Part shown: positions 32,942-61,318 of the stretch, one piece after another
How the letters are laid out: every line of letters begins with the position of its first letter
Position numbering within the stretch: the first letter of the stretch is position 1
Assembly: GCF_918320885.1 (NCBI RefSeq)
Contig: NZ_OU907312.1
Coordinates: 558,001 to 622,000 of the forward strand
Direction of reading: 5' to 3'
DNA length: 64,000 nucleotides
DNA from: an unidentified bacterial endosymbiont
Lineage (GTDB): Bacteria; Pseudomonadota; Gammaproteobacteria; Enterobacterales; G038960095
Position numbers and translations under genes: made by a program
Notes under the pieces: model-generated
What the model saw: the letters and a program-made list of their open reading frames with translations, nothing else
Told to the model about the DNA's origin: nothing
Databases searched by the model: none

Positions 32942-32987
32942 TTAGAATCTATTATTAAGAAATATTCAATAATTTTGGAGAGAATTA

Positions 32988-34928: not shown

Positions 34929-35024
34929 CTATCTGTAGGCATGGTTTTTTCATGACCATAACCCGTATGAGGCTGCTCTAAATCACTATCAATCAAACTC
35001 GCTGGATTAAGGAAATTGAGTCTA

Positions 35025-36170
35025 ATGCCATCAGCCATGATCCCTTTTAACAAGCTTTACCAGACTGGTAATGAGATCGATTATCTCGCCAAAGCGCTCC
35101 TGAATGGCCGCTTGGCAGGCGATGGTCCTTTTACCCAACGTTGCCAGAGTTGGCTCAGGCAACAGACCAGCTGTTGCCAAGCGCTACTGACCCACTCTTG
35201 TACTGCGGCACTCGAAATGACCGCCCTACTGTTGAACATTCAACCAGGGGATGAAATCATCATGCCCTCCTATACGTTCGTCTCAACGGCTAACGCTTTT
35301 GCGTTACGAGGTGGGGTCCCCGTATTTATCGATATCCGTTATGATACGCTGAACATCGATGAAAATTTAATTGAAGCGGCGATCACCTCACGCACTCGGG
35401 CCATTGCGGTGGTGCATTATGCTGGGGTTGCCTGCGAAATGCAGGCTATTCTAGCTATCGCCAAACGCCACGGACTGGCAGTCGTAGAAGATGCGGCGCA
35501 TGGCATGATGGCTAGATATCATGGGCAACTCTTAGGGTCACTTGGTGACTTGGGCGCCTACAGCTTTCATGACACTAAAAATATCATCAGTGGTGAAGGC
35601 GGCAGTCTGCTGATCAATGATTCCAGCTTTGTCCTGAGTGCTGAAACCATCCGCCAAAAAGGAACGAATCGCAGCCGTTTTTTACGTGGTGAAGTGGACA
35701 AATATACTTGGGAGACATTAGGTTCCTCTTTTTTGCCTAGCGAATTAACCGCTGCCTTCCTGTGGGCACAATTAGAACAGGCCGAATGGATTACCCAACA
35801 GCGATTAGCCCTGTGGGAGTTCTATCAGGAACAGCTAAAGCCAGTAGAGCAGCAAGGTCTACTGCGACGTCCTGTGTTGCCAAGTGGCTGCCAGCACAAT
35901 GCTCATCTCTACTACCTATTACTATCACCAGAGATCGATCGCCAAGTCGTCTTAGAACACTGTAAACAACAAGGGGTGAGCATCCTTGGACATTATGATA
36001 CCCCGCTGCACCGCTCGCCGGGTGGCCAGCGTTATGGCAGAACGTCCGGGCAATTAGTGACTACAGACGCTGTGGCACAACGGTTGATCCGTTTACCGCT
36101 GTGGATAGGGTTGAGTGAATCCGAACAAGCGAGAGTGGTTAAGGTGCTAGAAACTTCTTTATTGCAATAA
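35025..36170 (+). CDS. dTDP-4-keto-6-deoxy-D-glucose aminotransferase (WecE-like)
   Basis: PLP-dependent sugar aminotransferase of the DegT/DnrJ/EryC1 class. It follows E. coli WecE (RffA) closely: GDGPFTQRCQSWL, the LTHSCTAALEM loop, DIQPGDE-like NIQPGDEIIMPSYTFVSTANAF, VVHYAGVACEM, EDAAHG, and the PLP lysine in SFHDTKNIISGEGG. It would turn dTDP-4-keto-6-deoxyglucose (the RmlB product made at the right of this locus) into dTDP-Fuc4N. The acetyltransferase WecD is not in the locus. I chose the ATG at 35025 because AAGGA sits about ten bases upstream; an ATG at 35037 (MIPFNK) aligns with E. coli. Confidence 0.85.
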   Translation: MPSAMIPFNKLYQTGNEIDYLAKALLNGRLAGDGPFTQRCQSWLRQQTSCCQALLTHSCTAALEMTALLLNIQPGDEIIMPSYTFVSTANAFALRGGVPVFIDIRYDTLNIDENLIEAAITSRTRAIAVVHYAGVACEMQAILAIAKRHGLAVVEDAAHGMMARYHGQLLGSLGDLGAYSFHDTKNIISGEGGSLLINDSSFVLSAETIRQKGTNRSRFLRGEVDKYTWETLGSSFLPSELTAAFLWAQLEQAEWITQQRLALWEFYQEQLKPVEQQGLLRRPVLPSGCQHNAHLYYLLLSPEIDRQVVLEHCKQQGVSILGHYDTPLHRSPGGQRYGRTSGQLVTTDAVAQRLIRLPLWIGLSESEQARVVKVLETSLLQ

Positions 36171-36224
36171 CTGTGGCTATGCTTTAGCCTAGCCCATTGA
36201 TATCATGAACGAGCTATAGGTTAT

Positions 36225-37064
36225 ATGAAGAGGGTCAATGTTGGATTAGTCCTTTACAATAATAGTCAAGAAGAAATTTTTCAATGTCTAAACAGCCTCA
36301 ATAGACAAACCAGTGTTAAATCTATTAATAAGCTATTAATAAAGGATAATAGTATAAGCCCTCTCGAGCATATCGATCACTGGATAGCGGCTCAGACGGC
36401 CAACTTTGAAATTCAACAGTGGCATGGGTCTAATAATGGTTTCGGAGCCGCTCATAATTTTTTATTTCAACACACTCCTGAGACTATTGAAGCCTACCTT
36501 TGTCTTAATCCGGATGGGGTAATGCATCCCAATTGTCTAAAAGCGCTGCTAGAAAAAATGGACCAAACAGGACCCAACAACCTATTTGAAGCACGACAAG
36601 AGCCGGTGATGCACCCGAAATTTTATCACCCAGATTCTGGAGTGACCGATTGGTGTTCAGGCGCCTGCTTATTAATCCCTTCCCCGCTGTATCGTACTAC
36701 ACAAGGTTTTGATGAAACCTTTTTTCTTTATTGTGAAGATGTTGATCTCTCCTGGAGAGTCAGAGCTCAAGGTGGCCGGTGCTTTTCTATTTCTGAGGCC
36801 CGCTTCTTGCATTATACACTGGATAGAAAGCAGAGCAGTAGTGATGTAGAGATATGGAAATCTGCTGCTATTTTAGCGCATAAATGGGGTTCAAAAAAGT
36901 TCGTTAAACAGGCTCTAGATAGGGTGAAATCATTGGATCGTAGCAAACTTAATTCAGTACAAGAAACCCTAAAGAAAATAGAACAGGTGCCTTGGGGATC
37001 ACTGAAAACCGTCAAACCTCACTTCAACTCCGGTTTGGTTTTTTCTGATGCACTATGGAATTAA
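36225..37064 (+). CDS. GT2 glycosyltransferase, rhamnosyltransferase-like
   Basis: 279 residues, GT-A fold. VGLVLYNNSQEEI starts the nucleotide-binding half; NNGFGAAHNF and LCLNPDGVMHP carry the donor-binding motif; DWCSGACLLIP and GFDETFFLYCEDVDLSWRVRAQG form the acceptor-side signature typical of WbbL/RfbF-type rhamnosyltransferases. With rmlBDAC nearby, dTDP-L-rhamnose is a sensible donor, but this is inference. It is followed within two bases by the next glycosyltransferase, in a lower-G+C stretch. Confidence 0.78.
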   Translation: MKRVNVGLVLYNNSQEEIFQCLNSLNRQTSVKSINKLLIKDNSISPLEHIDHWIAAQTANFEIQQWHGSNNGFGAAHNFLFQHTPETIEAYLCLNPDGVMHPNCLKALLEKMDQTGPNNLFEARQEPVMHPKFYHPDSGVTDWCSGACLLIPSPLYRTTQGFDETFFLYCEDVDLSWRVRAQGGRCFSISEARFLHYTLDRKQSSSDVEIWKSAAILAHKWGSKKFVKQALDRVKSLDRSKLNSVQETLKKIEQVPWGSLKTVKPHFNSGLVFSDALWN

Positions 37065-37065
37065 A

Positions 37066-38061
37066 ATGGACGATTTATTAACAATTATTATCAGAACAAT
37101 GCCAGGTCGTGAACAGTTCTTGGACTGTTGTCTACTGAATCTTAGCTGGCAACAGTATAAAAAAATTGAGCTGGTTTTAGTGGCACAAACTGTGCAAGAG
37201 AATGAGAATTTTGATAAGTTACAAGCGCTTCTTCAATTGTGGCAGCCCTATTTTCCAAACTTACAGTTGTTAACCCACTTCTCCCAATCTGATGCTAGAG
37301 CACATAGCCTAAATCTTGGATTAGAACATGCTAATGGTCGCTATATCGCTTTTCTCGATGATGATGATAAGATCTATCCAGGGCACTATTCACTTTTAAT
37401 GAAATCCCTACAGGCTTCTGATTATGTTTGGGCTTATTGTGATATTGTGAGAGCACTCTATAATAAGCATGGTCAACTGATCTCACGATCGATGCCTTTT
37501 CGTCGATCCAGTTACTCTTTTATTCATCATCTGAAGAATAATTTCATTCCAATACACTCCTTCATACTTGATCGGCAAAATATCCCCAATTTAGTCAAGG
37601 TTGATGAAAGATTATCATTTCATGAAGATTATGCTTTTTTATTACAATTAGCTGCGTTATACCCACCGCTATATGTTCCAGGTATCGGTGCTGAGTATTG
37701 CATTAGAGAGGATGGAACCAATACCATTATAAGTGGAATCTATGATGGAGAAAACCGCTTTAAAAAACATAAAAATTGGACACTCTCTGAACAGCTCATG
37801 CAAGAAAAAAAGAAAAATTTAGTGGGTTGGTGGTTCAAAGAACTCGATAATTATCCAATAGAATCCACTGCTTATCAAGAAAAATGGTTTTACAAAATAA
37901 TCAGAAAATTTTATTTAAAGAATACAGGAATTATTCATTCTATTTGGAATAAATTAATTGATAAAGCTAGTGAAAAAATATCATTTAGACTAGATTCTTT
38001 AGAACTAAAAATAGAACAGCAACAAAAAATTTTAGAAAAAATAGATAAGAAACTAAATTAG
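37066..38061 (+). CDS. GT2 glycosyltransferase with C-terminal amphipathic tail
   Basis: 331 residues. GT-A motifs: TIIIRTMPGRE, ALNLGLEHANG-like SLNLGLEHANGRYIAF, and the DxD-type LDDDDKIYPGHY; FHEDYAFLLQLA is the catalytic-side acidic motif. The last 60 residues (from EKWFYKIIRKFYLKN) form a charged helical tail, possibly a membrane or partner contact. Nearly the same tail ends the convergent gene at 38134-40239. The ATG at 37066 is preferred; the frame also opens from 37048. Confidence 0.75.
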   Translation: MDDLLTIIIRTMPGREQFLDCCLLNLSWQQYKKIELVLVAQTVQENENFDKLQALLQLWQPYFPNLQLLTHFSQSDARAHSLNLGLEHANGRYIAFLDDDDKIYPGHYSLLMKSLQASDYVWAYCDIVRALYNKHGQLISRSMPFRRSSYSFIHHLKNNFIPIHSFILDRQNIPNLVKVDERLSFHEDYAFLLQLAALYPPLYVPGIGAEYCIREDGTNTIISGIYDGENRFKKHKNWTLSEQLMQEKKKNLVGWWFKELDNYPIESTAYQEKWFYKIIRKFYLKNTGIIHSIWNKLIDKASEKISFRLDSLELKIEQQQKILEKIDKKLN

Positions 38062-38315
38062 AACAAGGGTATTCTATGAATACCTCATTGCTTAATTAGA
38101 AAATAATTCTACAGTCAATAACATCATCTTACCTTAGTTTAACTTTTTAAGTATTTCTTCTAAATCTTTTTGTAGGCATTCCATTTTTATTTCCAGAGAA
38201 TCCATTTTAAATAATATTTTTTCACTAGCTTTATTAACTAATTTGTTCCAAACAGAGTGGATGATATTTTTATTCTTTAAATAAATGCTTCTTACTATTC
38301 TATAATACCATTTTT
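37888..38315. repeat. Imperfect inverted repeat formed by two homologous gene ends
   Basis: The last about 170 bases of the plus-strand gene ending at 38061 and of the minus-strand gene ending at 38134 encode the same tail (YLKNxxIIHSxWNKL, KASEKI, DSLElKxE). By eye the two arms are about three-quarters identical in DNA, read toward each other across a 72-base spacer. The repeat is coding on both sides. Confidence 0.7.
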
Positions 38316-40239
38316 CTTTATCAACAGATGATGCTCTACTGATCTTATTGATAATGATTTTATTTTCTGCTCTGCACTCTTTTTGCATAGGATAAAAATT
38401 TAATAAATAAATCCTAAAAGCTTCTCTTGCTTGTTGCAAAGATACTGTTTTGCTAATATTTAATGCATGGTGTTGAAAATTATAGATTTCATCTTCATTT
38501 TTGTTATAAAGGGTCTCAAAAAAATCTTTGGTACCAAAGAGATCATTAATAAAGAAGGCAGACTGACCATCCACAAAGAGACTATCACTACCACCATTAT
38601 GTTTTAAGATAGGAATTGCTCCACAATTGGCTGCTTCTAAAGGTAATAAACCTAGCCCTTCAAAATAAGAAAAATCAAGGTAATAGCCTACTGAATTAAA
38701 CAATTTATTTAATTCTGAAGAGGATAAATCTCCATGGTGCTGTCCTAGATCATTAGGCAAATAAAAAGCATCACTCTCTTGACCAAAAAGATGGATTTCA
38801 AATCCAACTTCCTTAGCCAGTAATAAGGTATGTAACATTGCTCCAGAGCCTTTAGATTCAGTAACTCTTAAACAAGCAGCAATTGATTTTTGATTACGAT
38901 TTTTATAATGGTTAGAAATATAAAATTTATCCTTATCTGCTCCTAAAGGTATAAATTCATGATGACTAACCTTTAGTTGAGACAAATAAGAAAATAAAAA
39001 ACCAGAAACACAGACTATTCTTAAATGATGATTTTGATAATCATTAACGACTGAACCAAAATATTTTCCACTAGAAAACAGGCTTTCAGGACCTTGAACT
39101 AAATACAGTATCTTTGCATTATAATAGTGTGACAATTCTTTTGAAATACTAACAGAATCATACATAGTTGCACAGACTACTTTTATTTTATAAATATTTT
39201 TATAAATGTCTTGAATAGAACGCCAGGGATTGAATAAACCTAAATTATCCACAAATTGTTCATCAATCATACCATAACAATAAATAGATGCTTTAATATT
39301 ATTCATTGTTAAATAGTTGGCAAAATCTATTGCAATATTAATCCCTCCTGAATTTCTTATAAAAGCAGGCAAAACAAATAATATATCGATTTCTTCATAA
39401 TCAACCTCAAAAGAAAAACGATTGTTTTTAAATCGTAGATAGTCATAAGGCTTTAGTTTATGATACAGTTTTTCTGATTTTGTATGTTCATATCCCCATT
39501 TTTTATAAAAAATTTCTTTATTAGTTTCAGATAGTTTAGAAAGATTATGTCTCAGTGAAAAACTACTACTTCCATTGGCATGATGAACTAATAAATTATC
39601 AATAACCACCGATCTAAAACCTTTCTCTAATACTCGATAATGCAAATCAGTCTCTTCCCAATAACCTTGATGATAATTTTTATCAAATAATTGAAACTCC
39701 TTTAAAGTGGTTTTCCGTACCGCTAAGCAAAAACCAACTGCAGTGTGTGCAGCTGGATATTTTGGTGTAAAACTACAGAGATAGCGATCAAGATCTAACC
39801 AAGATTGTCCCCAGTTCGGTAAGATAGTTAAATTTGAAGCATTAGTAGAAAATGGTGTTGCTAATACAACCTTAGCATCACTCTGAAAAGCAGATTGAAT
39901 TCTCTCTAACCAATCAGGAGGAACCAAGGTATCAGTATTAAGAAATACAACGATAGCTGTTTCTGCTGCCGCATAAAGCTGATTAGCATTTTCAAGATAA
40001 CCAATATTTTCTACTTGCCTAATTAATTTTATTTTAAATGGTGAATCATCAATAATTTGATCAATTAAAGATTGTGTTAATTCATCAGAACAGTCATCCC
40101 CTATAATAATTTCTGTTAACAGTGATGGGTTACTGTTACTCTCTAATGTTGTAAACAAATCGCGTAAGCGATGTGGCGAATTGAATACCGGGATCACAAT
40201 TGAAATAGAATGACTGTTGTTATCCATAAAATTTTCCAA
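38134..40239 (-). CDS. Two-domain glycosyltransferase (GT2 plus GT-B)
   Basis: 701 residues with two catalytic modules. Residues about 10-250 are a GT2/GT-A domain (SIVIPVFNSPHRL, IIIGDDCSDE, VVFLNTDTLVPPDWL, GYWEETDLHYRVLEKG). Residues about 280-600 are a GT4-like GT-B domain (LPAFIRNSGGINIAIDFA, VQGPESLF, FIPLGADKDKF, and the E-x7-E region YFEGLGLLPLEAANCGAIP). A charged helical tail shared with the convergent neighbour follows. Such fusions add two sugars in sequence. The gene is AT-rich and transcribed towards 38061, on the same strand as wzt/wzm. Confidence 0.78.
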   Translation of the reverse strand: MENFMDNNSHSISIVIPVFNSPHRLRDLFTTLESNSNPSLLTEIIIGDDCSDELTQSLIDQIIDDSPFKIKLIRQVENIGYLENANQLYAAAETAIVVFLNTDTLVPPDWLERIQSAFQSDAKVVLATPFSTNASNLTILPNWGQSWLDLDRYLCSFTPKYPAAHTAVGFCLAVRKTTLKEFQLFDKNYHQGYWEETDLHYRVLEKGFRSVVIDNLLVHHANGSSSFSLRHNLSKLSETNKEIFYKKWGYEHTKSEKLYHKLKPYDYLRFKNNRFSFEVDYEEIDILFVLPAFIRNSGGINIAIDFANYLTMNNIKASIYCYGMIDEQFVDNLGLFNPWRSIQDIYKNIYKIKVVCATMYDSVSISKELSHYYNAKILYLVQGPESLFSSGKYFGSVVNDYQNHHLRIVCVSGFLFSYLSQLKVSHHEFIPLGADKDKFYISNHYKNRNQKSIAACLRVTESKGSGAMLHTLLLAKEVGFEIHLFGQESDAFYLPNDLGQHHGDLSSSELNKLFNSVGYYLDFSYFEGLGLLPLEAANCGAIPILKHNGGSDSLFVDGQSAFFINDLFGTKDFFETLYNKNEDEIYNFQHHALNISKTVSLQQAREAFRIYLLNFYPMQKECRAENKIIINKISRASSVDKEKWYYRIVRSIYLKNKNIIHSVWNKLVNKASEKILFKMDSLEIKMECLQKDLEEILKKLN

Positions 40240-49484: not shown

Positions 49485-50495
49485 TCAAACCGCCACCTTT
49501 AAACAAGAGACCGTGTGCTGTGCATTGCCCTGCAGCTGAGGGCGGGTGACGGCACACTCTGGACCGGCTATGGGACAGCGCGTACGAAATACACACCCTG
49601 ATGGCGGGTGAATCGGCGACGGCAGGTCCCCTTCCAAGAGTTGGACTGTTTTATTCCGCTCTTTCCGGGGATCAGGTATCGGCACCGCTGCCATTAAGGC
49701 TTTAGTATAAGGATGTAGCGGATTATGGTAAATTTGCTCGTAGCTCCCATACTCTACGGGATGCCCTAGGTACATGACCAACACTTGATCAGAGATATGT
49801 TTGACCACTGCGAGATCATGAGCGATAAACAGCAGTGTCAAGCCACGCTCTCGTTGTAGCTCTTTTAACAGGTTGATCACTTGGGACTGAATGGAAACAT
49901 CGAGGGCTGATACTGATTCATCACAAATCAGTAATTTTGGCTGCGAGATCAAGGCACGCGCAATGCCAATCCGTTGACACTGGCCTCCTGAAAACTCATG
50001 GGGGTAGCGATTAATCAGATTAGGCAATAAACCAACCCGATCCATGATCGCTCTCACTTGCGCCTGCCGATCGGCTTTGCTCATCGCTGAGTAGAGGCTC
50101 TGTAGGGGTTCAGCAATGATATCACCCGCCGTCATCCGCGGATCAAGCGAGGCCAACGGATCTTGGAACACCATCTGAATCTCTCGGCGCCTGCCCAGCC
50201 ACTGTCTTGCCGTTAACTGGAGTAAATCCTCACCATTCCAATAAACTGCCCCGGCGGTCGCGGTGACTAAGCCGACGATAGCGCGGGCTAAAGTAGATTT
50301 ACCACAGCCTGACTCGCCCACAATGCCTAACGTTTTATTCTGCGCCAAAGAAAAGCTGACACCATCGACCGCTTTAAGCTGTTGAAATTTCGGCTGCCAA
50401 AACCAAGTTCCCCGCTGTCTGATGTTAAAATAGACCTTTAAATCGACCACCTCAAGGAGCGGTTTCAGCTGTTGATTGCTTTGATCGTGATTCAT
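49485..50495 (-). CDS. oppF: Oligopeptide ABC transporter ATPase OppF
   Basis: One of the two ATPases driving oligopeptide import. Walker A GESGCGKST, Q-loop QMVFQDPLASLDPRMT, signature HEFSGGQCQRIGIAR, Walker B KLLICDESVSALD, and the C-terminal oligopeptide-transporter extension with a Cys cluster (CVFRTRCPIAGPEC) that in some members binds an Fe-S cluster. Start ATG 50495 follows the oppD stop closely. 336 residues. Last gene of the operon. Confidence 0.94.
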   Translation of the reverse strand: MNHDQSNQQLKPLLEVVDLKVYFNIRQRGTWFWQPKFQQLKAVDGVSFSLAQNKTLGIVGESGCGKSTLARAIVGLVTATAGAVYWNGEDLLQLTARQWLGRRREIQMVFQDPLASLDPRMTAGDIIAEPLQSLYSAMSKADRQAQVRAIMDRVGLLPNLINRYPHEFSGGQCQRIGIARALISQPKLLICDESVSALDVSIQSQVINLLKELQRERGLTLLFIAHDLAVVKHISDQVLVMYLGHPVEYGSYEQIYHNPLHPYTKALMAAVPIPDPRKERNKTVQLLEGDLPSPIHPPSGCVFRTRCPIAGPECAVTRPQLQGNAQHTVSCLKVAV

Positions 50496-50497
50496 CG

Positions 50498-51457
50498 TCA
50501 ATACTCTTTGGCATGATAACAGGCGCATACCCCACCTTCACCCACAGGGCGCAAGGGGGGGGTGACTTGACAGCGCACTTCGGCCAACGGGCAGCGCGGT
50601 TGAAAAGGACAGCCTGTCGGCAGCCGCAGTAAGTTAGGAGGATCCCCGGGAATCGTTGCCAACACTTGATTATCCACATCAAGACGGGGCACAGCGTTTA
50701 ACAAGCCAATCGTATAGGGATGGGTGGGACGATAGAAAATAGACTCGGCGCTGCCACTCTCCATGGTACTGCCCGCATACATCACCAGCACGTTATCACA
50801 GCTACCAGCCACGACCCCTAGATCATGGGTGATCAAAATAATGGCCGTATTAAAAGCCTGTTTCAACTCATTTAATAAGCTCATAATCTGTGCTTGAATG
50901 GTCACATCCAAAGCGGTCGTCGGCTCATCCGCTAATAACAGGCGTGGGCGACATAGCAGCGCCATCGCAATCATCACCCGTTGACGCATGCCGCCAGAAA
51001 ATTCATGTGGGTACATGGTCATGCGCTGGCGTGCCTCAGGGATTTTAACCGCTTCTAACATCCAGACCGACTCCTCAAAGGCTTTGGCGTGACTGAACCC
51101 TTTATGGTGGATTAAGGTCTCCATCAACTGTTTACCAATCGTGATGTAAGGATTCAGCGAGGTCATCGGATCTTGAAAAATCATGGCAATCTGTGTCGCC
51201 CGAATTCGGTTACGTTCTTCAGTGGATAGATGAAGAATCTCCTGCCCGGCAAATTGAATCGAGCCCTTCACGTGACTATTATTGGCCAAGAGTCCCATCA
51301 GCGCAAAAGCCGTTTGCGATTTACCAGCGCCAGTTTCCCCGACAATGCCGAGCGTTTCACCAGCAGCCACGGTGAAGCTCAGATCATTCACCGCCGCGAC
51401 GGTACCCTCGGGGGTCGTAAAAGTAATCTGTAATCCATTGACCGCTAATAACGTCAT
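50498..51457 (-). CDS. oppD: Oligopeptide ABC transporter ATPase OppD
   Basis: 319-residue ATPase partner of OppF. Walker A GETGAGKSQ, IFQDPMTSLNPYITIGKQL, signature HEFSGGMRQRVMIA, Walker B RLLLADEPTTALD, and the C-terminal cluster CPFQPRCPLAEVRC. It abuts oppC with no gap and is followed two bases later by oppF. All motifs needed for ATP hydrolysis are intact. Confidence 0.95.
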   Translation of the reverse strand: MTLLAVNGLQITFTTPEGTVAAVNDLSFTVAAGETLGIVGETGAGKSQTAFALMGLLANNSHVKGSIQFAGQEILHLSTEERNRIRATQIAMIFQDPMTSLNPYITIGKQLMETLIHHKGFSHAKAFEESVWMLEAVKIPEARQRMTMYPHEFSGGMRQRVMIAMALLCRPRLLLADEPTTALDVTIQAQIMSLLNELKQAFNTAIILITHDLGVVAGSCDNVLVMYAGSTMESGSAESIFYRPTHPYTIGLLNAVPRLDVDNQVLATIPGDPPNLLRLPTGCPFQPRCPLAEVRCQVTPPLRPVGEGGVCACYHAKEY

Positions 51458-52375
51458 TCAAACTCTCCCTGAACTGTCTTTGGGATCGAGGGCGTCGCGT
51501 AAGCCATCACCAATAAAGTTGCAACAGAACAGCGTGACCATTAAAAATAGGCCAGGGATAATCAGTAGCCAACGGTAATACTCCAGATATTTGGGTCCCT
51601 CTTGCAACAACCCGCCCCAGCTGGCCATCGGCTCCTGGACGCCTAACCCCAGGAAACCTAGAAAGGATTCAAATAAAATCATCGCTGGGACTAGTAATGA
51701 GGCATAGACCACTACCAGCCCTAATACATTGGGCACAATATGCCGCCACAAGATTGCGCAGGTTGAGGCGCCACAAGTGCGGGCAGCCTCAATAAACTCT
51801 TTTTGCTTTAAACTAAGCGTCTGTGCCCGAACAATCCGCGCGACATTGAGCCAAGAGACCATGCCAATCGCTACAAAAATTAAGAACAGGTTGCGACCAA
51901 ATAGGGTCACCAGTAAGATCACAAAAAAAGTAAACGGGAAGGCGTCTAAAATTTCTACCCACCGCATCATTAAGGCATCAACCGTGCCTCCTAAATAGCC
52001 GGCGGTGGCCCCATAGAGCGTTCCTACCAACACCGCAATCAAGGCACTGGAGAGTCCTACCATTAGGGAGATACGACCGCCAGTAGCCGTCCGTACCATG
52101 AGATCTCGCCCTAAAAAATCGGTACCAAAATAGTGTCGATTAGCGATATTAGGGGGGGTTAACATAGCACCCCAATCAGGTGCTTCATAAGTGAAGGGAG
52201 AGCAGATCGGCGCCAGGATTAAAAACACCACAATCAATAACAAAACAGTTAAACTCACCACCGCTGCACGATTGGCGATAAAGCGCTGCAAGGCGTGCTG
52301 CCATAAACTACGACCTTTAATATCCAGCAGATGACTCGCTGGATCGACTGTTTTACTCAACTTTCGTAGGCTCAT
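51458..52375 (-). CDS. oppC: Oligopeptide ABC transporter permease OppC
   Basis: 305-residue inner-membrane permease with about six transmembrane segments. The N-terminal OppC_N segment (SLWQHALQRFIANRAAVVSL) precedes HYFGTDFLGRDLMVRTATGGRISL, the family signature, and the EAA loop (EAARTCGASTCAILWRHIVPN) that contacts the ATPases is present. Pairs with OppB; 18 bases separate the two genes. Confidence 0.94.
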   Translation of the reverse strand: MSLRKLSKTVDPASHLLDIKGRSLWQHALQRFIANRAAVVSLTVLLLIVVFLILAPICSPFTYEAPDWGAMLTPPNIANRHYFGTDFLGRDLMVRTATGGRISLMVGLSSALIAVLVGTLYGATAGYLGGTVDALMMRWVEILDAFPFTFFVILLVTLFGRNLFLIFVAIGMVSWLNVARIVRAQTLSLKQKEFIEAARTCGASTCAILWRHIVPNVLGLVVVYASLLVPAMILFESFLGFLGLGVQEPMASWGGLLQEGPKYLEYYRWLLIIPGLFLMVTLFCCNFIGDGLRDALDPKDSSGRV

Positions 52376-52393
52376 CTTCCCTCCTCGAATGCC

Positions 52394-53317
52394 TTAATAA
52401 CGAATTTTGGGATCGATCAGCGCATATAAAATGTCGACGACCGCCGTAAAAAAAATGGTTAAGGCTCCGATAATAATCGTTAAACTGAGTACCATGGCAT
52501 AGTCACGGTTGAGCGATCCATTCACCAGCAGCTGGCCAATCCCGGGTAACCCAAAAATGGTTTCAACCACGACAGAGCCGGTAATAATACCAACAAATGC
52601 TGGACCCAGGTACGCCATGACCGGCAGCAGCGCTGGCTTTAAAGCGTGGTGACAAACAATATAATAGAGGGGAAGCCCTTTGGCCTTGGCGGTACGGATA
52701 AAGTTTGTATGGAGCACTTCGAGCATGGAGCTCCGGGTAATCCGGGCAATACTGGCAATATAGCCAATAGCCAGTGAAACCACTGGCAACAACATATAGT
52801 TCCAGGGGCCACCGTTCCAGCCCCCCGCTGGGAGCCAGCGTAGCCACACCGCAAAAATCATGATCAGCAGCTGTGCTTTAATGAAGCTAGGGATGACGAC
52901 GCCAACCATGGCAAAGATCATCAGCGCATGGTCTAGCCAGCTGTTTTGCTTCAGGGCGGCCATCACGCCAATGCTCACCCCTAATACTACGGCAATGATA
53001 AAGGCGTAGATCCCAATTTTAATCGACACCGGAAAGGCCTGTTCAACCAGATCATTGACTGAAAAATCCCTATATTTGAAGGAGGGCCCCAAATCACCAT
53101 GCAGTAAGTTATTCATATAACGAAAGTATTGCTGATATAGGGGGGCATCTAACCCATATTTGGCTTCAATATTGGCCAGTACCTGGGGCGGTAAATTGCG
53201 ATCACTACTAAAGGGATTGCCGGGTGCCAGCCGCATCATAAAAAATGAGAGGGTGATCAAAATCAGCAGTGTGGGAATGGCCTGTAAAAAGCGCCTAATC
53301 GTAAAATTTAACATCAA
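52394..53317 (-). CDS. oppB: Oligopeptide ABC transporter permease OppB
   Basis: 307-residue permease, same size as E. coli OppB (306). N-terminal IRRFLQAIPTLLILITLSFFMMRLAPGNPF, the AKYGLDAPLYQQYF loop, the EAA-type loop RTAKAKGLPLYYIVCHHALKPALLPV, and ETIFGLPGIGQLLVNG near the end. It is separated from oppA copy 1 by 433 bases, longer than usual, which include the left edge of the duplicated unit. Confidence 0.94.
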   Translation of the reverse strand: MMLNFTIRRFLQAIPTLLILITLSFFMMRLAPGNPFSSDRNLPPQVLANIEAKYGLDAPLYQQYFRYMNNLLHGDLGPSFKYRDFSVNDLVEQAFPVSIKIGIYAFIIAVVLGVSIGVMAALKQNSWLDHALMIFAMVGVVIPSFIKAQLLIMIFAVWLRWLPAGGWNGGPWNYMLLPVVSLAIGYIASIARITRSSMLEVLHTNFIRTAKAKGLPLYYIVCHHALKPALLPVMAYLGPAFVGIITGSVVVETIFGLPGIGQLLVNGSLNRDYAMVLSLTIIIGALTIFFTAVVDILYALIDPKIRY

Positions 53318-53750
53318 TGCCTACCTTACTGGGTCGATCCAGCTTCCTACTTGAGAGACCAGTCACCGTGCCCATGCACTGTTTGATTGGGGGCTTCATC
53401 TCTGAGATAAGGCTAGGGGGTTAGGGGCCATCGCTCAGTGTGCTTTTTTAAAGCTTATCGGATGGTTTATCCTCCGGCTAACGACTATTTAACCCTTTTT
53501 TATACACCCCTACTGTATTCCAGCCTCGCCTAAAGCGCAACACTCTCTATAGCCGATAAAACCACCGGCAGTGATCAATGAGTAGGCTGTAAGCAATCAC
53601 ACCACCCGAGCGCCGAGAAAGTACACTAGGCGCCCCCCTGCTTATCAAAAATAGAAGGGGGGAATTAACAGCTTGGCTCACCACTGAAAACAGATGATCA
53701 GGCTCAGCTAGATGACGCGCTACTCATGGCCCTACTCTCTTCATCCATCA
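53318..53750 (-). other. oppA1-oppB intergenic region, including the left duplication edge
   Basis: 433 bases without a gene. From AAGCTTATCG at 53451 to oppA1 it resembles the sequence after oppA2 (from 55725), so this is the downstream part of the duplicated unit. A GCCGATAAAACC...CCGGC motif near 53550 recurs near 55825 and could be a weak attenuating hairpin. The part 53318-53450 is unique. Confidence 0.55.
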
Positions 53751-55385
53751 TTAATGCTTTGTAATGTAGAGATCTTTCGTATGAATAACCTTCATGGGAT
53801 TTTGCGTGCTATAGCCCTGAACATAGGGTTTAATCAGGCGAGCATCCACATAATGGTAAATGGGAACAATGGGCATATCGATCGCTAGCTGGGCTTCCGC
53901 CTTTTGGTAACAGGCCTGACGCTGGGGCTCGTTGGAAGCCACCAATGCTTGCTTGACCCAGTTGATAAACTGGGCATTATCATAGCCGGAATAATTGGTA
54001 CTACTCCCGGGTAACAAGATATTCAGGAAAGCAGAAGCTTCATTATAATCTGCTACCCAACCAGCCCGGGACATCTGATAATGACCTGATCGTTGGTTCT
54101 CTAAATAACTCTTCCATTCTTGACTATCTAGAGTCACCTCAGCACCGAGTGCCTGTTTCCAGAATAGGCTGGCAGCAACCGCCAACTGTTGATGCAGTTC
54201 TGAGGCGTTATAGAGTATGCTGAACTTTAAAGGATTTTTACTGTTGTAACCAGCCTCTTGCAGCAAATTTTTGGCGGCTTGGATCCGTTTTTTTTGCGAC
54301 CAAGTGTCCCATTCTGGCCGCTTGAGCGCTCCCCCCCCAATAGCTGGTGGGGTAAAACTGTAAGCAGCCGTATCCCATTGCCCTTTTACTTTTTCCACTA
54401 AAGCAGTTTTATCTAAAGCCAAGGCAACTGCTTGACGAACCTTAATATTATTAAAAGGAGGTTCCCGAGTGTTTAATGCGTAATAGTAGGTCGAGAGAGC
54501 GGGGTTTTTATGTAATTCTTTTGGGCACTCTTGCTTGAGCTGTTGAAACGTTGCTGATGGAACCGTACCATATATGATGTCCAGTTCACCAGAACGATAA
54601 CGCGCAATCTCCTGATGGTCTACAATGGGCAGGTACTTGACTTGGTTAATGACTGTTCGGCTATTGTCCCAGTACTGTGTATTGCGGATCAGGGTAATCT
54701 GCTCATTCACCACCCACTCCTGCATTTTATAAGCGCCATTACCGACCTGATTTCCAGGTTGGGTCCATTGATCCCCATATTTTTCAATGCTTGCTCGATG
54801 GACCGGTTTCACTGCCGTATGTGCCAGCATCTTAATAAAATAGGAGAGCGGTTGCGATAAAGTAATCTGTAGCGTCTGGGCATCCAGTGCCTGAATGCCT
54901 AAAGTCTCCACTGGCTGACGACCAGCCAGCACTTCCTTACTGTTCTGCAGTTGTACATCGTTTAAATAACTACTATAGGGAGAAGCGGTGTTTGGATCGG
55001 CTAAACGCCGCCAGCTGTAGACAAAATCCTGCGCTGTCACTGGATCACCATTAGACCATTTAGCCTCGGGGCGTAATGAAAAGATCCAAGTTTTCTGATC
55101 ACTGCTCTGCCAACTTTTAGCAACCCCAGGGACAATTTCCCCTTGAGGTCCGAAATTGACGAGACCCTCCCAGAGCTCATGAATAATATTGGAATCTGGA
55201 TGCCCAGTTGCTTTATGGGGATCTAAAGATTCAACCTCTGAACCATTGCCACGCACTAGCTCCTGTTTAGGAGAGAGTTGAACGCCAGGGGGTACTACGG
55301 CAGCACTAGACAAAGCAGGGGCGATGAGATAGATAATGGCCACAGTCCAGTTTGTCCATTGTAATAGGCCTCTAATCATAGTCAC
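53751..55385 (-). CDS. oppA: Oligopeptide-binding protein OppA, copy 1
   Basis: Periplasmic solute-binding protein of 544 residues (E. coli 543) that delivers peptides to OppBCDF. A signal peptide is visible (WTVAIIYLIAPALSSAAV). Landmarks shared with E. coli: GSEVESLDPHK, APGVAESW-like VPGVAKSWQSSD, DAKWSNGDPVTA-like EAKWSNGDPVTAQDFVYSWRR, DPNTASPYSSYL, KYGDQWTQPGNQVGNGAY, KPPFNDVRVR-like EPPFNNIKVRQAV, and ARAGWCADYNE-like SRAGWVADYNEASAFLN. About 83% identical to copy 2 by eye. It is the copy next to oppB. Confidence 0.94.
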   Translation of the reverse strand: MTMIRGLLQWTNWTVAIIYLIAPALSSAAVVPPGVQLSPKQELVRGNGSEVESLDPHKATGHPDSNIIHELWEGLVNFGPQGEIVPGVAKSWQSSDQKTWIFSLRPEAKWSNGDPVTAQDFVYSWRRLADPNTASPYSSYLNDVQLQNSKEVLAGRQPVETLGIQALDAQTLQITLSQPLSYFIKMLAHTAVKPVHRASIEKYGDQWTQPGNQVGNGAYKMQEWVVNEQITLIRNTQYWDNSRTVINQVKYLPIVDHQEIARYRSGELDIIYGTVPSATFQQLKQECPKELHKNPALSTYYYALNTREPPFNNIKVRQAVALALDKTALVEKVKGQWDTAAYSFTPPAIGGGALKRPEWDTWSQKKRIQAAKNLLQEAGYNSKNPLKFSILYNASELHQQLAVAASLFWKQALGAEVTLDSQEWKSYLENQRSGHYQMSRAGWVADYNEASAFLNILLPGSSTNYSGYDNAQFINWVKQALVASNEPQRQACYQKAEAQLAIDMPIVPIYHYVDARLIKPYVQGYSTQNPMKVIHTKDLYITKH

Positions 55386-55561
55386 AATCCCCGTTGTATT
55401 GATGCATTCAATTCGCTATTACGTTAATCTTTCCAAGCGTAACAGAATAGTGCAGTCAGATCAAAAACAAGTGAGCGTGTGCTTTAATAACAAACAGATG
55501 ATTGACTTTATTTTAACCATAATCAGATAAAATGAGTAAGAATACTTACACCTTGGCAGCA

Positions 55562-55724
55562 TTACTCTACTATTTTATCAGAGAGCACTGAATCGGTAGC
55601 CGTCCCCTGCCAACGTGATTGAATATGATCGACGACTGGCTGTTTTTGTGGATCCAAGAGATTCAGTGAACTGAACAACATACTGCCCTGTATCCCCACT
55701 GTTTTTTCATTAAAATCTAAAAGC
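55562..55724 (-). pseudogene. Duplicated 3' fragment of digH
   Basis: The frame encodes the last about 52 residues of the glycosyl hydrolase at 57822-59258 (LDFNEKTVGIQGS, then SLNLLDPQKQPVVDHIQSRW), with a single Val-to-Met difference. It begins abruptly at the duplication junction (55724/55725). A start codon upstream of it belongs to the junction sequence, so this is a dead by-product of the oppA duplication. Confidence 0.88.
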
Positions 55725-56010
55725 TTATCGTAGGGTTTATCCACTGGATAACAACCCTTAAACCCTCTTTTATACTATACCTACTGTGTTCCAGCCCCCC
55801 CTAAAGCGCAATACTCTCTACCGCCGATAAAACCGCCGGCAGTGATCAATGAATAGGCTGAAGGCAATCACACAACCGGAGAGCCCGGAAAGCGCAGTAG
55901 GCATCCCCCTGTTGATCAGACATAGGGGGGCTAACCACTGAACACAGTTGAACCGATGATCAGGCTCCAACCAGATGACACTCTGCTCAGGGCCCTACGC
56001 TGTTCATCCC

Positions 56011-57645
56011 TTAATGCTGTGTAATGTAGAGATCTTTCGTATGGATAATCTTCGTGGGATTTTGCGTGCTATAGCCCTGAACATAGGGTTTAATCAGGCG
56101 AGCATCGACGAAATGATACACTGGAATGGTTGGCATATCCGTTGCTAACTGGGCTTCCGCTTTTTGGTAATAGACCTGACGCTGGGTCTCGTTAGAGGTT
56201 CCCAAAGCTTGCTTGCCCCAGTTGACAAACTGGGGACTATCGTAGCCAGAATAATTGGTACTACTACCTGGTAACAAGATATTCAGGAAAGCAGAGGCTT
56301 CATTATAATCCGCCACCCACATAGCCCGGGCCATCTGGAAATTACCTAAGCGTCGGTTCTCTAAGTAACTTTTCCACTCTTGACTCTCCAAAGTTATCTC
56401 AGCGCCGAGGGCCACTTTCCAGAACGTACTAGCGGCAATGGCCAGCCGTTGATGCGATTCTACAGAGTCATGTAATATACTGAATTTTAAAGGATTTTTA
56501 CTGTTATAACCAGCCTCTTGCAGCAATGCTTTTGCGGCTTTAATCCGTTTTTTTTGCGTCCAGGTGGCCCATTCTGGCCTACTGACAGGAGCTCCATCGA
56601 TAGCTGGTGGAGTAAAACAGTCAGCAACAGTGTCCCATTGCCCTTTTACTTTTTCCACCAAGGCTCTTTTATCTAAAGCCAAGGCGACCGCTTGACGGAC
56701 TTTAACATTATTAAAGGGTGGTTGCCGACAGTTCAATTGATAATGATAGGTCCCAACACTAGGGATTTTATGTAACTCTTTTTTATACTCTTGCTTGAGC
56801 TGTTGAAACGTTGCTGATGGGACCGTGTCGTAGATCATATCCAATTCACTGGAACGATAACGGGCAATCTCCTGATGGTCTTGAATGGGTAGGTACTTGA
56901 CTTGGTTAATGACGGTTCGGCTGTCATCCCAGTACTGTGTATTGCGGATGAGTGTAATACGCTCGTTCACCACCCACTCCTGCATCCTATAAGCGCCATT
57001 ACCGACCTGATTTCCAGGCTGGGTCCATTGATCCCCATATTTTTCAATGCTTGCTCGATGAAGGGGTTTCAGCGACGTATGTGCTAGCATCTTAATCAAA
57101 TAGGAGAGCGGTTGTGATAAAGTAATTTTTAGAGTCTGGGCATCCAGTGCCTGAATCCCTAAAGTCTCCACTGGCTGACGACCGTTTAGGACTTCAGTAC
57201 TGTTCTGCAATTGTATATCGTCTAAATAACTACTGTAGGGAGAAGCCGTGTTTGGATCGGCTAAACGCTGCCAGCTGTAGACAAAATCCTCTGCTGTCAC
57301 TGGATCACCATTCGACCATTTGGCCTCGGGGCGTAATGAAAAGATCCAAGTTTTCTGATCACTGCTCTGCCAAGATTGAGCCACCCCCGGGACAATCTCC
57401 CCTTTGGGTCCAAAATTGACTAGACCTTCCAAGATCTCGTGAATAATATTGGTTTCTGTAAGCCCGGTGGTTTTATGCGGATCTAAGGATTCCACTTCTG
57501 AGCGATTACCACGCACTAGCTCCTGTAGCGGAGATAATTGAACGCCAGGGGGTACTACGGCAGCACTAGACAAAGCAGGGGCGATGAGATAAATCATGGC
57601 CACAGTCCAGTTTGTCCATTTTAATAGGACTTTAATCATAGTCAT
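56011..57645 (-). CDS. oppA: Oligopeptide-binding protein OppA, copy 2
   Basis: 544 residues, same architecture and signal peptide as copy 1 but about one residue in six differs. Differences are few in the first 170 residues and the last 60 and are denser around residues 255-430, which include parts lining the peptide pocket in the E. coli structure (for example the RAGW...DYNE region reads RAMWVADYNE here). Both copies are intact and keep nearly the same upstream region, so both are probably expressed. It is the first gene of the opp run, downstream of digH. Confidence 0.94.
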   Translation of the reverse strand: MTMIKVLLKWTNWTVAMIYLIAPALSSAAVVPPGVQLSPLQELVRGNRSEVESLDPHKTTGLTETNIIHEILEGLVNFGPKGEIVPGVAQSWQSSDQKTWIFSLRPEAKWSNGDPVTAEDFVYSWQRLADPNTASPYSSYLDDIQLQNSTEVLNGRQPVETLGIQALDAQTLKITLSQPLSYLIKMLAHTSLKPLHRASIEKYGDQWTQPGNQVGNGAYRMQEWVVNERITLIRNTQYWDDSRTVINQVKYLPIQDHQEIARYRSSELDMIYDTVPSATFQQLKQEYKKELHKIPSVGTYHYQLNCRQPPFNNVKVRQAVALALDKRALVEKVKGQWDTVADCFTPPAIDGAPVSRPEWATWTQKKRIKAAKALLQEAGYNSKNPLKFSILHDSVESHQRLAIAASTFWKVALGAEITLESQEWKSYLENRRLGNFQMARAMWVADYNEASAFLNILLPGSSTNYSGYDSPQFVNWGKQALGTSNETQRQVYYQKAEAQLATDMPTIPVYHFVDARLIKPYVQGYSTQNPTKIIHTKDLYITQH

Positions 57646-57821
57646 AATCCCCGTTGTATTGATGCATTTAATTCGCTATTCCATTAACCTTTCCAAGCGT
57701 AACAGAATAGTGCAGTCAGATCAAAAACAAGTGAGAGTGTTCTTTAATAACAAACAGATGATTGACTTTATTTTAACGATAATCAGATAAAATGAGTAAG
57801 AATACTGACACCTTGGCAGCA

Positions 57822-59258
57822 TTACTCTACTATTTTATCAGAGAGCACTGAATCGGTAGCCGTCCCCTGCCAACGTGATTGAATATGATCGACGACTGGC
57901 TGTTTTTGTGGATCCAAGAGATTCAGTGAACTGAACAACACACTGCCCTGTATCCCCACTGTTTTTTCATTAAAATCCAACTGTCTTTTTATTTCTGGGA
58001 CGCCATCAGCTATAGACCACGCTGGGTCACCGATCGATTTTCCTGCCCCTGGATAGTGAAATACTTGTCCCACTCTATAGAGCCCTACCCCGATATAGAG
58101 CTGTGTTTTAGTATACTTAACCAGATCAGCCCACCAGGTGGCAACCACCTCATAGGGTGCTAGTTCTGAGGCATGCGCCCAGTAAATCTGCGGCACAATA
58201 TAATCAATCAAGGCTTCCTGCACCCACTGCCGAGTGTCGGCATAATGGGTATCATAATGAGCTAAGGCATTAGTATTAGAGCCGTTAGGATCATCTTTTT
58301 TATTGCGCCAGACTCCGGAGGGACTAATACCAAACTGTATCTGTGGCTTGATCGCTTTTATTTTTTTTGATACTGCTTTAATCAAGGTATAAGTATTGTG
58401 CCGTCTCCAATCAGCTTTATGAGCAAAACCCGCCCCATAACGGCTAAAGGTCTGATCATCTGCTAAGGTTGAATCGTGTGATTCGTAATAAAAATAGTCA
58501 TCAAACTGAATGCCATCAACCTGGTATCGATTGACTATTTCTTCAATAATCTGTTCAATCCAGGCACGTACTTCAGGAAGACCAGGATCCAGCACATAAC
58601 GATGGAAGGCAGTTCTGATCCATTCGGGATGCTGGTTATAAAGACTGCGTGGGCAGTCCAGCAACGCCTGAATGCTCTCCTGTTCAAGGTTCATGGAGAC
58701 GCGATAGGGATTCAGCCAGGCGTGCAGCTGTAGTCCTCTGGCATGTGCCTCCTCAATGGCATAAGCCAGCGGATCAAAACCCGGGTCTTCTCCTAACGAT
58801 CCCGTTAGGTAGGGGGACCAAGGCAATAGGGCCGAGTGATACAGGGCATCTGCACAGGGCTTCACCTGGAAAACGACGGTGTTCATCCCCAGCGCTACGA
58901 CTTTATCCAGTATTGTCCGTAATTCGGTTTGCTGCAGTTCAATCCGTTCGGCACGCTCTTTGAGCGCTAAAGAGGCTTTAGAGGGCCAGTCCATGTTCTG
59001 GACAGTGGCTATCCAAGTTGCGCGTAACTGCCGATCCTGCCAGTGACTAGGTTTAATAGGACTCCCTGCTACACCGCTCTTCTGCTGAGAAGGTGCGGTC
59101 GTAGCCGTGGTAGCCTGCTGACTGCTGGTGGGCGGCGCTAGCGGGGCATGATGCTGCATCGCTTGTACAGACGCATTGATCGCTGAGTTCCAGAGCATGA
59201 CATTGAGGAGGATTGCTGTGAATGGTTTCCCCGGTTTAAAGCGCTCCAGTGCCCCCAT
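57822..59258 (-). CDS. digH: Divisome-type glycosyl hydrolase DigH (YddW, GHL10)
   Basis: 478-residue envelope protein. E. coli DigH cleaves denuded peptidoglycan at the division septum. The match is strong across the catalytic domain: LRATWIATVQNMDWPS, GMNTVVFQVKP, LPWSPYLTGSLGEDPGFDPL, LHAWLNPYRVS, VDGIQFDDYFYYES (acidic catalytic region), FGISPSGVWRN, DYIVPQIYWA and LYIGVGLYRVG. The N-terminus has a hydrophobic segment (AILLNVMLWNSAINASV) and a Thr/Gln-rich linker; no lipobox Cys is seen, unlike the E. coli lipoprotein. A 3' fragment of this gene is repeated at 55562. Confidence 0.88.
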   Translation of the reverse strand: MGALERFKPGKPFTAILLNVMLWNSAINASVQAMQHHAPLAPPTSSQQATTATTAPSQQKSGVAGSPIKPSHWQDRQLRATWIATVQNMDWPSKASLALKERAERIELQQTELRTILDKVVALGMNTVVFQVKPCADALYHSALLPWSPYLTGSLGEDPGFDPLAYAIEEAHARGLQLHAWLNPYRVSMNLEQESIQALLDCPRSLYNQHPEWIRTAFHRYVLDPGLPEVRAWIEQIIEEIVNRYQVDGIQFDDYFYYESHDSTLADDQTFSRYGAGFAHKADWRRHNTYTLIKAVSKKIKAIKPQIQFGISPSGVWRNKKDDPNGSNTNALAHYDTHYADTRQWVQEALIDYIVPQIYWAHASELAPYEVVATWWADLVKYTKTQLYIGVGLYRVGQVFHYPGAGKSIGDPAWSIADGVPEIKRQLDFNEKTVGIQGSVLFSSLNLLDPQKQPVVDHIQSRWQGTATDSVLSDKIVE

Positions 59259-59259
59259 T

Positions 59260-60057
59260 TTAGGGCTGCTGCGCCCGAGCGCTGTGAATGCCCTTCAACA
59301 GGGATTTAATCATTTTAGTGGGGGCAACCACCACTTCATTCGATCGCCCCCGATGTGGGGAACCACTAAAATCGGTGACCAAACCGCCCGCTTCACTCAC
59401 CAATAAGGCGCCTGCGGCCAGTGCCGCAGGCGCTACGCCACGCCCGAAAAAACCATCCAGTCGGCCAGCGGCCACGTAGGCAAAATCCAGGAGCGTACAC
59501 CCACTACAGCGGATGGCAGCCCCTTGTCCTAGCAAGGCCCCTAACAGGATGGTGGCGGGTTCCAGTGAGTGCTGAGGATTGGAAGTGAGTCGGGTCGCCA
59601 GCACACTCTCTGAGAGCGATTGAGACTGCGACTCCAGTCGCAAGCGATAACCATTGATTTGAGCCCCTGAGCCGCGCACCGCGGTAAACAGCTCATTACG
59701 CAAAGCGTCATAGATCACCGCTACCTCAGTAGCCGCTTTAATAGATACCGTGATGGAGAGCGCACAATGTGGCCAACGCTTGCTAAAATTGCGCTTCCCT
59801 GCCAGCGGTTCAATCAACCACTGAACCTCACCCTCACCGCTAATCGGCTCGCCCAGAGTACTCACAATAGCGTGATGTGGATAAGAGCGCTGGATCACAG
59901 CTATCATGACTTGAGCTATTGCTTGACTGACGGGCAAGCTATCCCCCGGAAAACCAGGGAAATGGCTATTAGGCTGTGTTCGCTGCTCATAAGCTTGGAC
60001 CATGCATTGACCCGCTTTACGCACGGCACGTACGGCAATATTCAGCATTGGATGCAT
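59260..60057 (-). CDS. suhB: SuhB-family protein with inositol-monophosphatase active site lost
   Basis: 265 residues aligning end to end with E. coli SuhB (MHPMLNIAVRAxRKAG, EVAVIYDALRNELFTAVRGSGAQINGYRLR, DFAYVAAGRLDGFF, SEAGGLVTDF). The metal-binding residues of the phosphatase are gone: the TEE segment is STL (66-68), DPLDGTTNF is EPLAGKRNF (83-91, so Asp84 is Glu and Asp87 is Ala), and PWDFAAGE is PAALAAGA (Asp212 is Ala). Catalysis is therefore very unlikely. SuhB also acts with NusA/NusB in rRNA antitermination independently of catalysis in E. coli; that role may be what is kept. Confidence 0.88.
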   Translation of the reverse strand: MHPMLNIAVRAVRKAGQCMVQAYEQRTQPNSHFPGFPGDSLPVSQAIAQVMIAVIQRSYPHHAIVSTLGEPISGEGEVQWLIEPLAGKRNFSKRWPHCALSITVSIKAATEVAVIYDALRNELFTAVRGSGAQINGYRLRLESQSQSLSESVLATRLTSNPQHSLEPATILLGALLGQGAAIRCSGCTLLDFAYVAAGRLDGFFGRGVAPAALAAGALLVSEAGGLVTDFSGSPHRGRSNEVVVAPTKMIKSLLKGIHSARAQQP

Positions 60058-60149
60058 TCTAGGACCTACTACAGCGATTAAAGAACCTTGAGTGGCGCCG
60101 ATTCTAGCAGAGGGCGCGCTAAAAACCTAACTGCGCGAACGCCTGTCGG

Positions 60150-60973: not shown

Positions 60974-61258
60974 TCACGCATAGCTATTAACGCGATCACG
61001 TAACTCTCTGCCTGGCTTAAAATGCGGTACGCACTTAGCGTTTAATGCCACTTTCTCCCCAGTCTTGGGATTTCGACCCATGCGTGGTGCGCGGTAGTGC
61101 AAGGAAATACTGCCAAAACCACGTATTTCAATACGCTCTCCGCTAGCTAAAGTGCTGACCATATGCTCTAACAGCTCTTTAACAGCCTCTTCAACCACCT
61201 TTCCGCGTAGATGCGCTTGTTGATCAACAAGCCGCTCAATTAATTCAGATTTAGTCAC
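60974..61258 (-). CDS. ihfB: Integration host factor beta subunit
   Basis: 94-residue DNA-bending protein of the HU/IHF family; with IhfA it bends DNA at promoters, origins and recombination sites. TKSELIERL at the start, [28 protein letters not shown] (the beta-ribbon arm with the intercalating Pro in RNPKTG) and [14 protein letters not shown] match E. coli. The frame is open to 61309, but the homologous start is the GTG at 61258, preceded by AGGGGCG. The terminator at 60930-60959 follows. Confidence 0.94.
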
Positions 61259-61318
61259 GCACGCCCCTAGTATTAACAGCAGGCCCAAACAGACCCAGGA
61301 GGTCATCAATGCTCCCGG

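Follow-up and report, generated by a model that had tools for sequence, protein, structure and literature searches.

In Escherichia coli, SuhB is a Nus factor that is required for boxA-dependent antitermination and for rRNA maturation (PMC4807359). It binds the AR2 repeat of NusA with a Kd of 94 nM, and the K251A/L254A double mutation abolishes this binding (PMC6614801). The suhB gene itself is repressed by the Nus complex through a boxA at about -28, for which the consensus GYTCTTTAANA has been given (PMC5725501). According to Chen and Roberts (2000), as summarized in PMC4807359 and PMC6614801, the phosphatase activity of E. coli SuhB is not needed to relieve the defects of suhB mutants, which agrees with the statement in a preliminary description of the present locus that catalysis is dispensable for the antitermination role of E. 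coli SuhB. The catalytic chemistry has been described for the enzyme of Mycobacterium tuberculosis, in which three catalytic Mg2+ ions are bound by the equivalents of E67, D84, D87, and D212 together with a backbone carbonyl, and mutation at these sites cuts activity dramatically (PMC2080633). The suhB gene has been counted as ancestrally essential in Enterobacteriaceae (PMC11481867), and a metabolic model of Buchnera omitted it as unconnected to biomass (PMC2649895). A search of the open-access literature returned no earlier report of a natural SuhB pseudoenzyme, or of such proteins as the rule in reduced genomes.

The window analyzed here is a stretch of 64,000 nucleotides from an endosymbiont genome that is assembled as a single contig of 1,661,850 bases with a completeness of 100. 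Judged from its sequence and that of its relatives, the SuhB ortholog encoded in this window has very probably been reduced to a non-catalytic role and kept as a Nus factor.

The suhB locus and its predicted product

The features of the locus are as follows.

60057..59260, minus strand: suhB, encoding a full-length SuhB ortholog without the active site (265 codons, ATG start, TAA stop)
59800..59814 (approximate codon range), minus strand: former DPLDGTT motif, now EPLAGKR (D84E, D87A, T89K, T90R)
59419..59427 (approximate codon range), minus strand: former PWD motif, now PAA (W211A, D212A)
60078..60086, minus strand: boxA-like GTTCTTTAA upstream of suhB, in its leader, 29 nt from the start codon

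Inspection of the open reading frame found zero internal stops across the 265 amino acids, and the earlier claim of a full intact frame thus holds, with the minus strand, which it had lacked, now supplied. The protein matches Pfam Inositol_P (PF00459) over its full length with 127.8 bits, and its closest solved structure is E. coli SuhB (~1e-61, collinear over residues 1-257). An AlphaFold2 model was obtained with a mean pLDDT of 88 and a pTM of 0.88, and its best structural match is E. coli SuhB 2qfl (TM 0.90); in this model, the SuhB fold is intact. Together with the retention of 47 of the 68 non-catalytic conserved residues, this bears out the earlier remark that the scaffold is otherwise conserved. 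In addition to the fold, the window protein shares with E. coli SuhB (PDB 2qfl, 6ib7, 6ib8, and 6tqn) about 44% identity, residues K251 and L254, and the leader boxA. It is among the most divergent SuhBs examined (median identity 0.40, distance 2.0 times the median), nothing in either genome collection exceeds 47% identity to it, and a search for close relatives found no other genome of its family (f1). PyrF of the same genome, at 1.68 times the median distance, is divergent too, suggesting that much of the apparent speed of SuhB is genome-wide.

Several neighboring features were recorded. A GHL10-family glycosyl-hydrolase-like gene (57822..59258, minus strand) starts 1 nt past the suhB stop codon, a spacing that suggests translational coupling of the two genes. 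An IHF-beta-like open reading frame (60974-61309, minus strand) is called with an odd N-terminal extension from TTG, and its true start is probably an internal GTG. An oligopeptide ABC transporter region (49485-57645, minus strand) includes two tandem, very similar OppA-like binding proteins of 544 amino acids (53751-55385 and 56011-57645). The stretch 32000-40000 has a GC content of 0.37, compared with about 0.49 around it, and encodes a DUF6077 protein, a DegT-type aminotransferase, and three GT2 glycosyltransferases; it is probably an acquired surface-glycan locus. No RNA families were found within the window, promoter and terminator scans of the window gave scores no better than those of shuffles, and a hairpin listed at 59433-59408 was set aside as it falls inside the coding sequence.

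Loss of the active site and selection on the frame

Unlike E. coli SuhB, the window protein has its four side-chain metal ligands and its phosphate/inositol contacts replaced. In E. coli numbering, all four ligands are altered (E67T, D84E, D87A, and D212A), the window protein having T67, L68, E83, A86, and A212 at the positions of E67, E68, D84, D87, and D212. Alignment to E. coli SuhB thus confirmed the Thr/Leu, Glu, Ala, and Ala that had been read at these positions; the substitutions were right, and only the numbering Glu66/67 needs correction, since counted from Met1 the residues are E67 and E68. The statement that every metal ligand is replaced is accurate for the four side chains, except that D84E retains a carboxylate and the backbone carbonyl of L86 could not be lost by substitution. 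Further substitutions include D44S, E68L, T89K, T90R, R184C, E205G, and W211A, and the mobile-loop residues K34, N37, D38, and V40 are also lost. The substrate contacts T89 and E205 are thus now K and G, and AA stands in place of the WD motif. As the equivalents of the Mg2+ ligands of the M. tuberculosis enzyme are altered, the active site is gone, with D84E as the one conservative exception, and we infer that phosphatase activity is absent. The protein would fold in the IMPase manner but would no longer hold the catalytic Mg2+ or position the phosphate ester.

A rebuilt site (E83, K88, and R89), serving another metal arrangement, substrate, or ligand and giving the protein a chemical or ligand-binding role, is extremely unlikely. 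The carboxylate kept by D84E fits such a site, and an anion could be bound by the new K and R where the phosphate pocket used to be; against it, no acidic residue is found at E67, D87, or D212, and W211, E205, and D44 are gone as well. Moreover, the replacements at the ligand positions differ widely among lineages with dead SuhBs (K, N, S, Y, I, A, and G), as expected of released constraint.

Against PRK10757/NF008027, the NCBIfam inositol monophosphatase equivalog, the window SuhB scores 232 bits, below the cut-off of 332, and five other dead SuhBs score 304-411 bits. Four of these five pass the cut-off, indicating that the model is blind to the active site.

The other members of the superfamily served as controls. 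In a PF00459 search of the 1.66-Mb genome, neither a second SuhB nor another IMPase was found; the only match besides SuhB is class I fructose-bisphosphatase (Fbp), whose metal motif (IASEEEE ... LLDPLDGSSN) is intact. The second catalytic suhB that would have undermined the preliminary description was looked for and is absent. In 12 reduced genomes, each of the 13 paralogs from the IMPase superfamily, most of them CysQ-like, retains the complete set of four ligands. CysQ and Fbp share the fold class and the metal motif with SuhB; unlike in the window SuhB, that motif is intact in the Fbp of the same genome and in the 13 CysQ-like proteins. General genome decay or drift in base composition was thus rejected as the cause of the SuhB losses.

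Alternatively, this reduced genome could carry suhB as a recent pseudogene, one yet to gain a stop or a frameshift. The genome is indeed reduced (1.66 Mb), and the protein is divergent, with 21 of the 68 non-catalytic conserved residues lost, some of them probably second-shell; given this divergence and these losses, partial decay is possible. Ordinary decay is nevertheless very unlikely. The losses cluster at catalytic positions: of the nine that at least 93% of active orthologs share, 9/9 are gone, compared with 21/68 of the remaining conserved positions (Fisher p=9e-5). At least 0.58 nucleotide changes per site are seen in the 11 catalytic codons that were lost, and when neutral change was simulated at 0.5 per site, the frame stayed stop-free in only about 0.1% of cases, a comparison that assumes that these codons drifted freely after the loss. 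A true SuhB pseudogene, found in genome G168, is riddled with stops and frameshifts, unlike the window frame.

Dead SuhBs across Enterobacterales

The search of relatives for the same losses, which had been proposed earlier, found them to be recurrent. A loss was scored when at least two of the four metal ligands were gone, and SuhBs scored in this way are called dead here. In Enterobacteriaceae sensu lato (f19, assigned from Hamiltonella, Sodalis relatives, and E. coli-like members), ligand loss was observed in 0/34 genomes of at least 2.6 Mb (a sample from about 130 larger genomes of this family), 5/7 genomes of 1.7-2.6 Mb, 19/21 genomes of 0.75-1.7 Mb, and 30/31 genomes below 0.75 Mb, with 49/52 overall below 1.7 Mb. 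Ligand loss also occurs in families with larger genomes. All 11 species of f2 (one genus, 4.4-5.2 Mb; loci including L021, L019, L031, and L153-L160) carry E67K, D87N, and D212E, 4 of the 12 species of f10 (4-5 Mb) carry D84N and D212E, and one f4 genome has lost ligands as well. The proteins of f2 and f10 may be crippled rather than dead, since some carboxylates remain (D212E). Besides the window protein, eight of the sequences examined have lost all four ligands.

A SuhB tree from which the catalytic columns were left out requires at least eight separate losses. This tree places the window protein beside a Hamiltonella-like clade, although its family is f1; because fast lineages attract each other in this way, eight is probably a lower bound, and the varied replacements in dead SuhBs likewise argue for many loss events. 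The dead SuhBs of reduced Enterobacteriaceae (Hamiltonella L033, Sodalis-like L034, and G041), f2, and f10 have lost two to four ligands and kept the scaffold, and largely the same non-catalytic residues are kept in them as in the window protein, which comes from a different family and retains less of the active site than most of them. The description of the window gene as a natural separation-of-function allele therefore pointed in the right direction but understated the case, as the state recurs across the order.

The residues that are shed and kept were compared at 77 positions conserved in active orthologs, with retention counted across 57 dead SuhBs and the window protein excluded from defining the split. 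The shed class comprises E67 (kept in 14%), A188, R184, D44, E68, A214, T89, G70, E205, V40, D84, D212, and D38, and the residues kept in 95-100% include W81, N91, P97, G186, L190, E222, H62, R13, R139, R141, Y194, and G224, among others. With a threshold of 80%, the window protein retains 36/39 kept-class sites and 12/38 shed-class sites (p=2e-8; p=3e-7 to 3e-4 at other thresholds), an agreement with other dead SuhBs that also speaks against ordinary decay. The structural core certainly accounts for part of the kept class. However, H62, P97, R141, Y194, R199, and partly R139 are mostly absent from catalytic paralogs, which suggests that they serve more than the fold and makes them candidate contact sites in transcription.

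Dead SuhBs of relatives are under purifying selection, with dN/dS values of 0.03-0.14 in larger genomes. The median is 0.138 in f2 (55 pairs), and f10 shows 0.034 for dead and 0.043 for active SuhB, both at near-saturated dS; pairs of dead SuhBs from reduced genomes give about 0.12 to 0.5. These values, which come from families other than that of the window (f1), answer the earlier call for such a check in relatives, with f2 and f10 well below 1, and support purifying selection on the window gene indirectly.

SuhB has probably become a pseudoenzyme repeatedly and independently in Enterobacterales, in nearly every examined symbiont-like reduced genome that retains it and in some lineages with larger genomes, with the catalytic set shed together and the antitermination set kept, which would imply that the phosphatase is selected in larger-genome Enterobacteriaceae.

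boxA, the Nus machinery, and the retained role

The boxA-like element in the suhB leader matches that of E. coli suhB in position and sequence. Its core is identical to the core of the boxA in the rrn operons of the same genome, and it agrees with 10 of the 11 consensus bases, with the mismatch at the last position of the published 11-base consensus. GYTCTTTAA occurs 58 times in the genome; at this frequency, the calculated chance that a correctly oriented copy falls within a 10-nt slot is about 2 in 10,000. The conservation of this element in front of a gene with a dead product is a further point against ordinary decay. Additional matches to GTTCTTTAA lie at 32890-32898 and 57739-57747 (both plus strand), and GYTCTTTAA occurs five times in the 64-kb window, with 1.4 expected. 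Across orthologs, a leader boxA was found in 58/91 active SuhB genes, with about one expected by chance in all 163 leaders, and was recognizable in 8/70 dead ones. The idea that boxA marks dead SuhBs in general was therefore rejected; the element supports the case of the window, not the class.

The partners of SuhB are also present. All three rrn operons carry boxA in their leaders and spacers, NusA of the same genome has both AR repeats (AR1 and AR2), and NusB is encoded. With the interface judged from the NusA-AR2 crystal paper, both contact residues (K251 and L254) are kept in the window SuhB. In a comparison of 76 mostly reduced genomes, NusB was absent or broken in six, and SuhB was lacking in 6/6 of these (p=1e-6, uncorrected for phylogeny or genome size). 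The full pair of NusA AR repeats was lacking in 8/10 SuhB-less genomes and in 10/66 SuhB-bearing genomes. Strict co-occurrence of SuhB and NusB was rejected, as NusB is kept without SuhB in G132, G258, and G205. The clearest example of joint loss is G168 (1.2 Mb; L341 and L342): all that is left of SuhB is a frameshifted sequence containing stops, NusB also has stops, and two IMPase-superfamily paralogs (CysQ-like) are intact. The complex for boxA antitermination has apparently collapsed in this genome.

A different non-catalytic role, such as binding to the ribosome or to the polymerase holoenzyme, or a mere translational link to the GHL10 gene that follows, is very unlikely. E. coli SuhB has been found bound to the RNA polymerase holoenzyme and Pseudomonas aeruginosa SuhB associated with the ribosome, according to papers cited in PMC6614801, and the GHL10 gene begins just beyond the suhB stop codon. 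Coupling alone, however, would not preserve amino-acid identity, and the Nus complex is favored instead by the presence of the Nus partners, the AR2 contacts, boxA in both contexts, and the loss of SuhB together with NusB.

The window SuhB would accordingly be placed in the rrn antitermination complex. As a scaffold, it would bind NusA-AR2 and RNA polymerase and help to hold NusB/NusE on the boxA of nascent rRNA, thereby supporting antitermination and rRNA folding, and its level may still be autoregulated through the boxA in its own leader. The preliminary description held that selection keeps antitermination only: the tie to the Nus factors is supported by the leader boxA, the AR2 contacts, the partners, and the joint loss of SuhB and NusB, and we infer the "only".

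The loss of catalytic parts in nearly all genome-reduced relatives examined points to a SuhB that survives for its rRNA role and not as an enzyme. E. coli SuhB is a moonlighting protein, and evolution has repeated the mutant experiment with dispensable catalysis many times: reduced genomes and some lineages with larger genomes have dropped the active site and kept the rest. Many proteins automatically annotated as inositol-1-monophosphatase are thus very unlikely to be that enzyme. The resulting residue map can be tested against the rrn antitermination complex, with E67, R184, A188, D44, E68, T89, E205, D84, and D212 on the shed side and H62, W81, N91, P97, R139, R141, G186, L190, Y194, and E222 on the kept side. 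To our knowledge, no laboratory role has been described for the SuhB phosphatase. Since the active site is kept in 34/34 of the larger Enterobacteriaceae sampled, this activity is probably selected there, which reopens the question of what the SuhB phosphatase is used for in larger-genome bacteria.
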